From Pseudobutyrivibrio sp. ACV-2 (GTDB lineage: Bacteria; Bacillota; Clostridia; Lachnospirales; Lachnospiraceae): a DNA stretch of 64,000 nt. The notes beneath the pieces are model-generated. The model was given only the letters and a program-made list of their open reading frames with translations. It was not told the origin of the DNA and did no database searches. Position 1 is the first letter of the stretch. Each line of letters begins with the position of its first letter. Made by a program: the position numbers and the translations under genes. Where the stretch lies: positions 310,001-374,000 of the forward strand of contig NZ_FNQZ01000002.1 in the NCBI RefSeq assembly GCF_900107545.1, in the 5' to 3' direction. Positions 3,808 through 44,432 of this stretch are shown here, in pieces.

Positions 3808-4047
3808 TTAAAGGTATTTAAAAAGATCTGCCGCAGCATCCTTTTTAGTAGTATCCTGAATATCCAGAACTTCGACCTTTACGTTTTTATTCCCAAATGC
3901 TATTTCTATTATATCACCAATTTTTACATCAGTGGATGCTTTCGCAATTTTTCCATTAATTTGAACACGCCCGCTATCGCAAGCCTCATTGGCTACGGTG
4001 CGTCGCTTGATTAAGCGTGATACTTTTAAATATTTATCTAGTCTCAT
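3808..4047 (-). CDS. rqcP: S4-domain RNA-binding protein RqcP (YabO)
   Basis: A 79-aa protein made almost only of an S4 RNA-binding fold (MRLDKYLKVSRLIKRR, then GRVQINGK). In Bacillus the orthologue RqcP works with RqcH in ribosome quality control, stabilising P-site tRNA on obstructed 50S subunits during alanine tailing. The position between hup and divIC is the conserved one for yabO. The next gene starts 8 bases after its stop, so the two are probably co-translated. Its upstream region holds a long hairpin element at 4120-4211. Confidence 0.9.
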   Translation of the reverse strand: MRLDKYLKVSRLIKRRTVANEACDSGRVQINGKIAKASTDVKIGDIIEIAFGNKNVKVEVLDIQDTTKKDAAADLFKYL

Positions 4048-4119
4048 GCGTTTCGTTTACCTCTTTTCGTACCATAGTTGTAGATTTCTGCTTTGTGAAA
4101 GTAAGTTTTCACAGTGTAA

Positions 4120-4211
4120 GCTGTCAGGTAACAATTATATATTGCATATTTGGGTGAGTATAGCGAAAGCGATACCCAAATATGTAATATATGATTGTTG
4201 CCGTAGACAGC
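4120..4211 (-). repeat. Long intergenic hairpin element, copy 1
   Basis: A near-palindromic 92-base element between hup and rqcP. Outer arms GCTGTC (4120-4125) and GACAGC (4206-4211) enclose an asymmetric internal loop, then long inner arms starting ACAAT, with a terminal loop containing the motif TATCGCTTTCGCTATACT on the minus strand. The same architecture and the same terminal loop occur at 43097-43190 with different stem sequences, and a variant occurs at 22939-23022. Confidence 0.85.
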
Positions 4212-4232
4212 GCCGCCATTGAGAAAAACTAA

Positions 4233-22050: not shown

Positions 22051-22866
22051 CTATCTCTTCAGGTTGTTAGCCTGCTCCAGCATTGTATCTGAAGTGGTTA
22101 TCGCCTTTGAGTTCATTTCATATGCACGCTGAGCAATGATAAGATTTACCATTTCATCAGCTACATTTACATTTGAGCCTTCCAGATAATTCTGGACAAC
22201 TTCACTTCTGATGACTCCCTGAGTGCTCCACTCTGGCATTGGTTCGCCTGAAGCCTCTGACTCATCATATAGATTTTCGCCTATCTTATTAAGACCTACT
22301 CTATTGGTAAATTGATAAATAGCTACACTCTGTCCGGTGGCTGTATATTTTCCATCAGCATTTTGAATTGTGATAGCGCCTGTATCAGGGTCCACCTTAA
22401 AATCTTTTTCTACAGTTTTTGGAACCTTGATTGGCTGATTGGCCTGGTCCAGTACCTGGTAACCTTCTGGAGTGGTAAGAACTTTCTCACCTGCATCATT
22501 TATAGCCCAGCTGAAATTTCCATTTCTGGTATAGTGAGTCTCTGTGCCATCCTGCACTGCAAAGAAGCCTTCACCGATGATACACATTGCTGTATTGCTA
22601 TCGTTTGCAAGCTGTGCGCCCTGGGTGAAGTTTGAATTCAAAGAAGCCACTCTGGTTCCAAGGCCTACCTGAGCTGCAGTTGGTTTGGTATCGCCCTGAG
22701 CATTTGTACTTTTAGACTGCAGGGTTTGGTACAAAAGTGTCTTGAACTGGGCGTTCTGTGCTTTATAGCCTGTTGTATTTACATTTGCTAAGTTATTTGC
22801 GATTGTATCAACTGATGTTTGCTGGCCCTTCATTCCTGAAGCAGCTGACCATAATGATCTGACCAT
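22051..22866 (-). CDS. flgG: Flagellar distal rod / hook-basal body protein FlgG
   Basis: Extracellular axial protein of the flagellar rod. The N-terminal signature SAASGMKGQQTSVDTIANNLANVNTTGYK and C-terminal SNVNVADEMVNLIIAQRAYEMNSKAI are the two ends of the axial coiled coil. The 271-aa length matches FlgG (Bacillus FlhP). GAGG precedes the ATG. It is separated from flgF by a 211-base gap that carries a hairpin element (22939-23022). Exact FlgF/FlgG identity relies on order and length. Confidence 0.9.
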   Translation of the reverse strand: MVRSLWSAASGMKGQQTSVDTIANNLANVNTTGYKAQNAQFKTLLYQTLQSKSTNAQGDTKPTAAQVGLGTRVASLNSNFTQGAQLANDSNTAMCIIGEGFFAVQDGTETHYTRNGNFSWAINDAGEKVLTTPEGYQVLDQANQPIKVPKTVEKDFKVDPDTGAITIQNADGKYTATGQSVAIYQFTNRVGLNKIGENLYDESEASGEPMPEWSTQGVIRSEVVQNYLEGSNVNVADEMVNLIIAQRAYEMNSKAITTSDTMLEQANNLKR

Positions 22867-22886: not shown

Positions 22887-22961
22887 GGCTCGCCTGTTAC
22901 GCTCTCAATGCTATAAGATATTGTTACGCTGTGGCTCGCCTGTTACGCTCTCAATGCTATA
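22887..22961 (+). repeat. 29-base direct repeat, two copies
   Basis: Identical 29-base units beginning GGCTCGCCTG and ending AATGCTATA at 22887-22915 and 22933-22961 (46-base period). The second copy is the 5' arm of the hairpin element at 22939-23022; the first is an isolated half without a matching 3' arm. Confidence 0.85.
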
Positions 22962-23022
22962 TATTGCAACGGTCAGCTTGGAATGCTTCCCTTATGCAAT
23001 ATATAGTATTGATAGCTACAGG
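22939..23022 (+). repeat. Long intergenic hairpin element, copy 2
   Basis: Outer stem CCTGT / ACAGG, internal loop TACGCTC opposite TAGCT, inner stem of about 18 pairs ending TATATTGCA / TGCAATATA, and a terminal loop that differs from the other two copies. It lies between flgF and flgG. Confidence 0.85.
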
Positions 23023-23077
23023 CTATCTTTACTTTGCAGTGGGTTACGCTGCTAACAACGAATAATTACGTTTACGA

Positions 23078-41569: not shown

Positions 41570-43072
41570 TTATTTATCCTCTTTGCGTAAGAGTTCCATC
41601 TTCATGTTGTAATAATCCGGTGTCATATCCAGATAATGCTTGTGTGGATTCTCGAAACGCTGCTCCTCAGGCCATACGCTTGTTTCAAGCTGAGTTTTTA
41701 CACGTTCTCTGATGGTCTGCATGTCCTCGTCCGGAGAAACAGCCTCGCCACCGCGGATGAGAGGCTTTTGAAGAAGCTCTGCTGTGCAGTTTTCAAAAAT
41801 GTGTGTGCTCTTCCATGGCTGCTCAGGGTCGATAAAGCGATATCCACCTGGGGTAGACATATCCACATTTTCACCCTTGATAGCTAGCATATCTGCAACG
41901 GCTCTGCCGTTTTCGTCTTTGATACGGTACACGTCCTTGAGACCTGGATTGGTGATTTTTTCAACGGTCTCGGAAATCTTAATCTTTGGAATGGTCTCGC
42001 CTGTTTTTGCATCTGTAACTGCGCAAAGCTTGTAAACAGCGCCAAATACTGGCTCTGATTTAGCTGTGATAAGGCGCTCGCCTACACCAAATGAGCTAAC
42101 CTGTCCACCCTGCTGCAAAATAGAAGTAATAGTGTACTCATCAAGTGAGTTACTTACGATGATTTTAGCATCGGTAAAGCCTGCGTTATCAAGCATTTTT
42201 CTGGCATTTTTTGTAAGGTATGCAAGGTCTCCTGAATCAATTCTGATGCCGTAGCTCTTTGACTGGATGCCTGCTTCCTTCATTTCCTGGAACACTTTAA
42301 TAGCGTTTGGCACGCCGCATTTAAGTACGTTGTAGGTATCAACCAAAAGAATGCAGTTATTTGGATAGCTTTTTGCAAAGCTTCTGAAGGCTGCAAGCTC
42401 TGAGGTATGGTAATCATTATCATCACTGGTGAAATACATGACATAGCTATGAGCCATAGTACCACCAATTGGAATGTTAAAGTACTGACCCGCAGATACT
42501 GTGGCTGTACCTGCTGCACCGCCAATATAGGCAGCTCTAGCGCCATAGATAGCAGCATCGTTATTATGGGCACGTCTTGCACCAAAATCTGATACTGGGC
42601 GGCCTGCTGCTGCACGCACGATGCGACTGGCTTTAGTAGCAATGAGTGACTGGTGATTTACCTGAGCCAAGACTTCAGTTTCTACCAGCTGAGCCTCTAT
42701 AATAGGGGCTGTAACTGTGATGATTGGCTCGTTTGGATACATAATGGTCCCCTCTGGGAATGCATCCACATCACCTGTAAATTTGAAATTCTTCAGGTAC
42801 TCTAAAAAGTCCTCTGTGAAATGGCCTACACTTCTAAGATAATCAATATCCTCATCTGTGAAATGCATGTTCAAAAGGTAATCCTTTATCTGCTGAAGGC
42901 CTGCGAAGATGGCGAAGCCACCGCCGTCTGGGTTGACGCGGTAGAATACGTCGAAGCTTACTTTAGTATTTGGATCAATGGATGGGTCATTAAAATACGC
43001 ATTGGCCATGGTAAGTTCGTATTCGTCCATCATCATGGTTAGGTTTCTTGCTTTATCTTGTGTTTGTTTCAT
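41570..43072 (-). CDS. pncB: Nicotinate phosphoribosyltransferase
   Basis: First step of NAD salvage from nicotinate: joins nicotinate and PRPP with ATP help to make nicotinate mononucleotide. The 500-aa length fits the clostridial subgroup. Conserved features are the N-terminal MMMDEYELTMANAYF, FARRAHNNDAAIYGARAAYIGGAAGTATV, GTMAHSYV and RIDSGDLAYL (phosphate-binding region). The alternative start at MMMDEYEL is possible, since the ribosome site of 43072 is distant. It is followed closely by rsmJ. Confidence 0.95.
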   Translation of the reverse strand: MKQTQDKARNLTMMMDEYELTMANAYFNDPSIDPNTKVSFDVFYRVNPDGGGFAIFAGLQQIKDYLLNMHFTDEDIDYLRSVGHFTEDFLEYLKNFKFTGDVDAFPEGTIMYPNEPIITVTAPIIEAQLVETEVLAQVNHQSLIATKASRIVRAAAGRPVSDFGARRAHNNDAAIYGARAAYIGGAAGTATVSAGQYFNIPIGGTMAHSYVMYFTSDDNDYHTSELAAFRSFAKSYPNNCILLVDTYNVLKCGVPNAIKVFQEMKEAGIQSKSYGIRIDSGDLAYLTKNARKMLDNAGFTDAKIIVSNSLDEYTITSILQQGGQVSSFGVGERLITAKSEPVFGAVYKLCAVTDAKTGETIPKIKISETVEKITNPGLKDVYRIKDENGRAVADMLAIKGENVDMSTPGGYRFIDPEQPWKSTHIFENCTAELLQKPLIRGGEAVSPDEDMQTIRERVKTQLETSVWPEEQRFENPHKHYLDMTPDYYNMKMELLRKEDK

Positions 43073-43096
43073 TGGGTTTTTCTAATCTCCTAGTCC

Positions 43097-43190
43097 GCAG
43101 TGTTACGCTCACAATCATTACTACTACCCTTCGGTATCGCTTTCGCTATACTCACCTCAGGGTAGCAGTAATAATTGTTAGCTACACTGC
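43097..43190 (+). repeat. Long intergenic hairpin element, copy 3
   Basis: Outer arms GCAGTGT / ACACTGC, internal loop TACGCTC opposite TAGCT, inner arms ACAATCATTACT..CTACCC / GGGTAG..AGTAATAATTGT, and terminal loop with TATCGCTTTCGCTATACT. The terminal loop is identical to copy 1 (4120-4211), but the stem bases differ while pairing is kept. It lies between the CDF gene and pncB; orientation relative to genes is opposite to copy 1. Confidence 0.87.
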
Positions 43191-43292
43191 TCATTTAAAG
43201 TTTGGAATGCGTTTAGTAGCGGCACATACGGGCTTGAATGTGTATCTACGGAACTACGATGACGCATTTACGTATTGTGTTAAGGTACGCAT

Positions 43293-44432
43293 TTAGTCCG
43301 TTATGTCCACGTCGGCGGATATTTGGATAGTGTATTCTGGGTAGGCGTCGAGGACTTCGCGGTAAATTATTTCGGTGCCTTCGGTGTGTGGAATGTCAAA
43401 GCTAAATACTACGTCAAATCGCATTTCCCTTGTGGTGGTGTTTACGTAAAATCCGTGGAGTTGGAGGGCCCATTCGTGAGCCTTTACGATTTCAAGCACA
43501 CGGTTTCTGATGTGGGCTGCCTCGTCGTCCTTGGTATTGAACGAGTAGACACCTACGCCTGTAAGCACAACGCCTGTTTCTTTAAATACCTTTTCCTGTA
43601 TTCTACGGGTAAGATTGTCCACCTCTTCTACGGTCATAACATCTGGAAGCTCTACATGGACTGACCCTAAGAACTTGTTTGGGCCATAGTTATTAAGCAC
43701 CAAATCGTAGGCCCCTCTGACCTCTGGCTCCTCGCAGATGATACGCTTGATTCCTACTGAAAGCTCTCTATCAGGGCGGCGTCCCAGGATATCATCCAAA
43801 GTATCGGACATCATCTCCCAACCTGCCTTTATGATAATCACAGAAATCAGCACACCTACAAATGCCTCAAGTGAAATGCCAAATGCAATGTAGATGATAG
43901 CCGATGCCAGTACTGATGTTGAAATGATAGCATCAAAGCTGGCGTCTGCTCCAGATGCCACAAGAGCGCTGGAATTGACCTTTTCACCTGTGGCCTTAAC
44001 ATATCTGCCAAGGAAAAATTTTACGATGATGGCCACCACTAAAATCACAAGTGTTATAGAGTTATACTCTGCTTTTTCAGGGTGAACAATCTTTAAAATC
44101 GACTCGTTCAATGATGTAAGACCTGCATATATGATGATGGCAGCCACAAGCAGCGCGCTTAAATACTCTACTCGGCCATGACCTAAAGGATGCTCACGGT
44201 CTGGCATTTTGCCTGCCAGTTTCGTACCCACTATGGTAATCACGGAAGAAAGTGCATCCGACAGGTTGTTTACCGCATCCAGTATGATAGCAATGGAGTT
44301 TGACATCACTCCCACCAAGGCCTTGAAGGCCGCCAGGAAAATATTTGCTACAATTCCGATAATACTGGTCTTGACGATAATCTGGTCACGATTTGCTACT
44401 GCATCTGCTACATTCATGTTTGTATTTTTCAT
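43293..44432 (-). CDS. Cation diffusion facilitator exporter, manganese-type site
   Basis: A 379-aa metal/proton antiporter with six helices and a C-terminal cytoplasmic dimerisation domain, longer than usual by a further ferredoxin-like half. The helix 2 site reads NNLSD (N..D) and helix 5 reads DASFD (D..D), i.e. N-D-D-D instead of the zinc type D-D-H-D, which by analogy to streptococcal MntE suggests manganese (or iron) export. The HPLGHGRVEYLSAL motif is present. Its ATG overlaps the end of the Cys-rich gene by 4 bases (coupled). Confidence 0.85.
   Translation of the reverse strand: MKNTNMNVADAVANRDQIIVKTSIIGIVANIFLAAFKALVGVMSNSIAIILDAVNNLSDALSSVITIVGTKLAGKMPDREHPLGHGRVEYLSALLVAAIIIYAGLTSLNESILKIVHPEKAEYNSITLVILVVAIIVKFFLGRYVKATGEKVNSSALVASGADASFDAIISTSVLASAIIYIAFGISLEAFVGVLISVIIIKAGWEMMSDTLDDILGRRPDRELSVGIKRIICEEPEVRGAYDLVLNNYGPNKFLGSVHVELPDVMTVEEVDNLTRRIQEKVFKETGVVLTGVGVYSFNTKDDEAAHIRNRVLEIVKAHEWALQLHGFYVNTTTREMRFDVVFSFDIPHTEGTEIIYREVLDAYPEYTIQISADVDITD

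Follow-up and report, generated by a model that had tools for sequence, protein, structure and literature searches.

A lineage-restricted family of covarying, probably mobile hairpins in Pseudobutyrivibrio

Three long intergenic hairpins in a 64,000-nucleotide stretch of DNA from Pseudobutyrivibrio sp. ACV-2, the whole of which was analysed and is here called the window, belong to one family with many copies across this genus of bacteria from rumen and gut. We read it, at a probability of about 0.58, as a new REP/bcr1-like family of genus-wide mobile hairpins whose folding strand (F) possibly also acts in mRNA.

Three copies and the fold they share

An earlier note, made from the letters of the window alone, had placed three hairpins and given their outer stems, and inspection of the sequence bore out both. 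The copies, their parts and their flanking genes are as follows:

3808-4047: predicted gene flanking copy 1
4115..4214, plus strand (the folding strand, against both flanking genes): copy 1, full element, apex class A; R2 match of 39.7 bits
4282-4554: HU-type gene flanking copy 1
22051..22866, minus strand: flagellar basal-body rod protein gene, downstream of copy 2
about 22888..22929, minus strand: partial half-copy adjoining copy 2, by eye
22935..23028, minus strand: copy 2, full element, flanked by two genes for flagellar rod proteins; apex class B, with a tandem GA/AG step; R2 match of 79.7 bits
23078..23881, minus strand: flagellar basal-body rod protein gene, upstream of copy 2
41570..43072, minus strand: nicotinate phosphoribosyltransferase gene, downstream of copy 3
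43093..43196, minus strand (the folding strand, along both flanking genes): copy 3, full element, apex class A; R2 match at 43098-43191, 48.8 bits
43097..43103, plus strand: outer stem arm GCAGTGT of copy 3, from the fold
43104..43106, minus strand: GTA side of the A/GTA internal-loop module of copy 3 (TAC on the plus strand; single opposite base 43183)
43135..43152, minus strand: class A apex of copy 3, the folding strand reading GC-GAAA-GC in mid-apex
43184..43190, plus strand: outer stem arm ACACTGC of copy 3, from the fold
43293..44432, minus strand: cation efflux gene, upstream of copy 3

Folded as RNA, copy 1 reaches -52.9 kcal/mol on the plus strand (z -11.3; -37.1 on the opposite strand), copy 3 -52.3 kcal/mol on the minus strand (z -10.2; -39.8 on the opposite strand), and copy 2 -41.5 kcal/mol on the minus strand (z -7.9), about equal to the -42.6 of its opposite strand. 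For copies 1 and 3, the better fold lies on the complement of the strand that had been described. None of 200 shuffles folded as well as copy 1, 2 or 3 in each case, and all three score with model R2, supporting the proposal that they form one family; beyond them, the next distinct R2 place in the window lies at E 0.12. The terminal loop motif that copies 1 and 3 had been said to have in common, GTATCGCTTTCGCTATAC, is indeed found twice in the window, both times free of mismatches (0.02 matches expected with up to 3 mismatches).

On F, the element is a long irregular hairpin. An outer stem of ~6 bp leads through an A/GTA internal loop to a long variable stem, which is capped by an apex. The asymmetric internal loop of the earlier description is present, with a different composition: TAC opposite T (3 vs 1 base), between the outer stem and GCT/AGC. 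The apex takes three forms: in class B it has a tandem GA/AG step, in class A a loop of GAAA type, and class C shows a third form. Elements are roughly 90-105 bp long; the aligned class B elements measure about 83-89 nt, the length range in which these 117 had been chosen, and class A copies are similar to them in size or longer.

Alignment A4 comprises 117 of 126 selected class B elements, nine having been dropped by hand without a recorded rule. Across its 33 named pairs, 91.5% of cells are paired, against 69.7% after shuffling and 30-43% for slid structures. Two-sided changes were found in 30 of the 33 pairs and in 791 cells vs 227 shuffled, counts in which related rows are not independent, and no shuffle out of 500 gave as many; the claim that stem letters vary while pairing is kept thus holds. 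Two pairs are poor, 15-82 (73/116 unpaired) and 36-62 (52 unpaired). Among 111 distinct elements, 26 pairs give 2660 Watson-Crick cells and 69 wobble cells on F, against 7 wobble cells on the opposite strand; a further 72 cells are mismatched in other ways. A single column pair contributes 27 of the 69, and in a rougher alignment covering 195 elements the asymmetry is weaker, at 173 vs 61. Wobble pairs make up ~3% of paired cells, which is low for RNA.

Within this free but paired stem, the unpaired modules hold. In A4, the single A is present in 117/117 elements, the G, T, and A of GTA in 116, 116, and 115, the loop T in 117, and GA/AG in 108, the last count being inflated because the class B selection pattern asks for GA on both sides; without that pattern GA/AG occurs in 145/195. 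In 105 elements from genomes G012 and G000 that lack the class A loop, found with a model (R1) built from 15 copies, the corresponding counts are 104 for A, 99 for GTA, 87 for GA/AG, and 104 for the apical T. Ninety elements from motif-scan loci and the window gave 90, 90, 58, and 87 (loop T), the A and GTA values being biased, since those loci were chosen by a motif containing the A/GTA bases. Outside apex class A, the A/GTA loop and the apical T are nearly fixed, and the tandem GA/AG step is common. In class A the A/GTA loop is looser: of 25 such copies in G000, 14 have GTAA or GTAG close to their 3' end. GTAG is conserved, but lies within the hairpin, where it separates the outer from the inner stem.

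Two further features were seen at individual loci. Some apices are enlarged by other hairpin-like inserts (L061:2716-2872 and G000 C27:84615-84771), and some elements are adjoined by what looks like another long palindromic repeat, its core resembling CCCCGCCGGCGTGGGTCCCC (L073 about 1470-1580, L059, L075).

Distribution, mobility and conservation in place

Among the genomes searched, the family is restricted to one genus. Further copies, sought in the window's own genome and its relatives, proved to be many: R1 matched 29 of 61 genomes, comprising 29/29 of the window's genus and 0/32 others, with from 1 to at least 63 matches per genus genome. Among the best 150 candidates per genome, G010 has 47 matches, G012 71, and G003 134, and the window's own genome has 84 at E up to 0.1, some matches in these counts being the opposite strand of one and the same element. 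Under strict filters and among the best 11 candidates per genome, R2 matched two out of 397 genomes of the family, each belonging to the genus; 20 of the 395 genomes without a match among those best 11 candidates were listed, all as 'same family'. A motif scan of a named genome collection returned 78 stretches, 72 titled Pseudobutyrivibrio and 6 Butyrivibrio fibrisolvens 16/4. The same scan of a viral collection returned one (L134, 2250 bp), whose flanks are 99.1% like P. xylanivorans MZ8 locus L061 and which is therefore probably bacterial DNA. An Rfam search of the window gave no match, and five loci that include copies of classes A, B, and C yielded 13 weak matches, every one below its gathering score, in keeping with the earlier statement that no named family fits.

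The family behaves as a mobile repeat would, as the earlier note had supposed: its presence is patchy, copies have unrelated flanks, and elements are nested. In the spacer between the two flagellar rod genes, the element is present in 11 of 29 genus genomes; 16 are without it and have a spacer of 11-52 bases, and in the remaining two, where the gene start was misread, the spacer looks empty by eye. Copies 93-98% alike have unrelated flanks. In the best three non-neighbour pairs, homology ends about ATGAGC and GCGGACTA in two, and some bases further in the third (two of the ten near-identical pairs shown are tandem neighbours). Half-copy arrays from 175 sources include 165 simple LR clusters, 7 LLR, 7 LRR, and 4 LLRR, together with a small number of longer arrays. 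The reversed control had 2 LR and 10 LL; given those 10 LL, the 34 LL clusters and at least one LLR may be chance.

A target-site duplication was sought at 137 elements: 51 flank 5-mers were shared vs 44.2 after shuffling, with 44 of 500 shuffles as high, and flank 4-, 6-, and 7-mers likewise gave nothing significant. At fixed offset pairs, the largest excess was 7 vs 1.9, among several hundred offsets tried. The ten pairs compared for empty sites contained no clean junction; we saw shortened hairpins, larger deletions, nested differences, and diverged spacers instead. Near 3277 of L081, a mini-palindrome stands where the relatives L113 and L252 hold a full element. In place of the usual right arm it has the reverse complement of its own left arm, as if a fold-back had been copied.

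Orthologous copies outdo their flanks in identity among closer pairs (32/39 at 85-95% flank identity) and not among distant ones (15/44 at 70-85%). The comparison covered 91 pairs, three of opposite orientation having been dropped, with the aligned part of the 400-base flanks as reference. By flank identity, the element was the more identical in 3/5 pairs at 95% or above, 10/14 at 90-95%, 22/25 at 85-90%, 9/30 at 80-85%, and 6/14 at 70-80%; tandem copies supply some of these pairs, several loci are represented more than once, and many were located through an exact motif, which favours conserved copies. An apparent in-place inversion was traced to misleading flank homology and rejected.

Position, orientation and competing explanations

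Copies lie mostly just downstream of genes, along the gene and the leading strand. Of 238 elements classified with codon-scored genes, a set from which 10 exact duplicates and 3 elements lacking a flanking gene had been removed, 210 lie between codirectional genes, F running along the genes in 181 and against them in 29; 22 lie at convergent and 6 at divergent sites. For the 181 gene-directed copies, the upstream gene lies a median of 57 bases away. Background spacers in G012 samples comprised 26 convergent and 22 divergent ones, or 8 and 22 for gaps >100 bases. Longest-ORF gene calls used at an earlier stage had left copy 3 unclassified and misread copy 1, and the counts were redone; the older calls gave 176 with the genes, 25 against, 24 convergent (17 leading, 5 lagging, 2 unclassed), and 7 divergent. 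As had been observed from the window, orientation differs among its three copies, 2 and 3 running along their flanking genes and 1 against, but family-wide it is strongly biased and not random. Variable orientation had been taken to speak against an RNA role; with F along the genes in 181 of 210 codirectional sites that argument falls, leaving room for a role in RNA.

At convergent sites, which gene direction leaves undecided, F is on the leading side in 15 cases and on the lagging side in 4, with 3 unclassed, the leading strand outside G012 being a proxy from neighbouring genes. At codirectional sites where gene direction and leading strand disagree, F follows the genes in 3 and the leading strand in 2, so such sites do not decide. 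In G012, where the GC skew changes sign at 0.70-0.84 Mb and 1.96-2.10 Mb, 65 copies out of 71 rows were examined, and in 55 of them F has the sense of the leading strand. The G012 C1 regions around these switches, 661-993 kb and 1873-2184 kb, are without listed elements.

Under our preferred reading, a trans-acting factor would recognise F in its folded state, probably when it is exposed as single-stranded DNA in the lagging-strand template, and would place copies downstream of genes without target-site duplication. F would then be transcribed with the upstream gene, and the hairpin may be kept as a 3'-end or intercistronic mRNA structure, serving as a stabiliser or processing site. A role of the folded strand in mRNA is judged likely.

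A purely selfish single-stranded-DNA element, its hairpin kept only for a recombinase and without any RNA role, would account for several of these observations. The leading-strand bias extends to convergent sites (15 vs 4, 3 unclassed), copies are nested, and there is no target-site duplication signal; moreover, gene-opposed copies keep the GT excess (25 vs 13) and the loop (A 18/19, GTA 19/19 with the older longest-ORF gene calls), the latter fitting DNA as well as RNA. It accounts less readily for orthologs that outdo their flanks in 32/39 pairs at 85-95% flank identity, for the scarcity of divergent relative to convergent sites (6 vs 22; G012 background 22 vs 26), and for a search that found no Y1 or reverse transcriptase common to all genomes and no integron integrase over cut-off. 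We regard this account as possible but doubtful.

A dispersed cis-regulatory RNA or terminator-like motif, spread by ordinary duplication without mobility of its own, appears improbable. Such a motif would be expected near 3' ends and directed with genes, as seen here (181 vs 29), and four related G012 C1 copies (381788, 1761282, 1415024, 350846) all lie between convergent genes, one of them, 1415024, being flanked by tracts of A and T in the manner of a two-way terminator. However, the element also occurs between two flagellar genes that run in the same direction, no T tract appears when the 3' flanks of 65 G012 copies are profiled, and nested copies and near-identical copies with unrelated flanks speak for movement.

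The search for a mover bears on the remaining alternatives; among Y1, reverse transcriptase, and integron integrase models, none common to all genus genomes was found. Y1_Tnp is present in 10 of 29 genus genomes and the reverse transcriptase RVT_1 in 15, both being missing from G012 and G008, which are rich in copies, and R2 found no element in 18 Y1 loci and 8 RT loci. A retro-element reading was rejected on the RVT_1 distribution and the empty RT loci. The suggestion of a REP-associated Y1 transposase as partner likewise did not hold up. A REP element mobilised by a RAYT transposase would agree with the palindromic, intergenic, and mobile nature of the family and with the GTAG conserved between outer and inner stem, yet it is made very improbable by that patchy Y1 distribution, by the Y1 loci without an element, and by a length and an internal GTAG position unlike those of the REPs described in PMC3733652. 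An integron attC-like recombination site, for all its similar anatomy and strand bias, is scarcely credible, as no genus genome (0/29) has a match to the integron integrase model over cut-off, and the weaker matches present in 29/29 genomes recur in all 14 controls, as expected of general tyrosine recombinases.

Beyond the preferred reading, the family could represent a new class of mobile element, in which one hairpin, recognised by shape and not by stem sequence (A/GTA loop, tandem GA step, free but paired stems), is moved at replication forks and can insert into its own copies. The enzyme that moves it, either one of the host or one since lost, would belong to a kind so far unconnected with repeats, and nested hairpins built by self-insertion would then act in mRNA. 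We consider this extension unlikely.

Significance and relation to known repeats

The family adds a large structured repeat to the genus, and titles in the literature on Pseudobutyrivibrio or Butyrivibrio revealed none. Covariation around fixed unpaired modules makes it a test case for how shape by itself may define a mobile repeat, and its orientation a test case for telling transcription-linked from replication-linked bias. For annotators, it is a warning that a hairpin of this type can separate two genes within an operon and is not necessarily a terminator.

MITEs are short, non-autonomous elements with inverted ends; the present family differs in that we found no target-site duplication signal, and no cognate transposase among the Y1, RT, and integron integrase models. 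The attC sites of integrons have a paired box, an unpaired spacer, a second box, and a variable stem, and are of folded-strand architecture. Our elements resemble them in the folded strand with its variable stem, and differ in that no integron integrase was found over cut-off.

REPs, as described in PMC3733652, are 20-40 bp long, have GTAG at one end, and often occur with RAYT; they are palindromic, intergenic, and often downstream of genes, with subfamilies that have alternative paired stem letters. The passages of PMC3733652 on hosts of GTAG palindromes name Proteobacteria, Cyanobacteria, Chloroflexi, and PVC, and that text nowhere mentions Firmicutes. With REP/GTAG palindromes and REPtrons, the present family has in common its palindromic form, intergenic location, frequent position downstream of genes, GTAG, and alternative paired stem letters, whereas its aligned length of about 83-89 nt, the GTAG inside the hairpin, and the lack of a RAYT link set it apart.

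The bcr repeats of the Bacillus cereus group are described in PMC6542083 as lineage-restricted, 100-400 bp long, and with mobile features, bcr1 reaching up to 130 copies and mobility being tied to a TTTAT motif; a common fold is given for Bcr1 in PMC2267715. Our elements are, like these, lineage-restricted, structured, and mobile, being patchy, copied, and covarying, but differ in genus (Pseudobutyrivibrio and B. fibrisolvens 16/4), in sequence, and in giving no target-site duplication signal. We would place the family among the REP and bcr1-like repeats.
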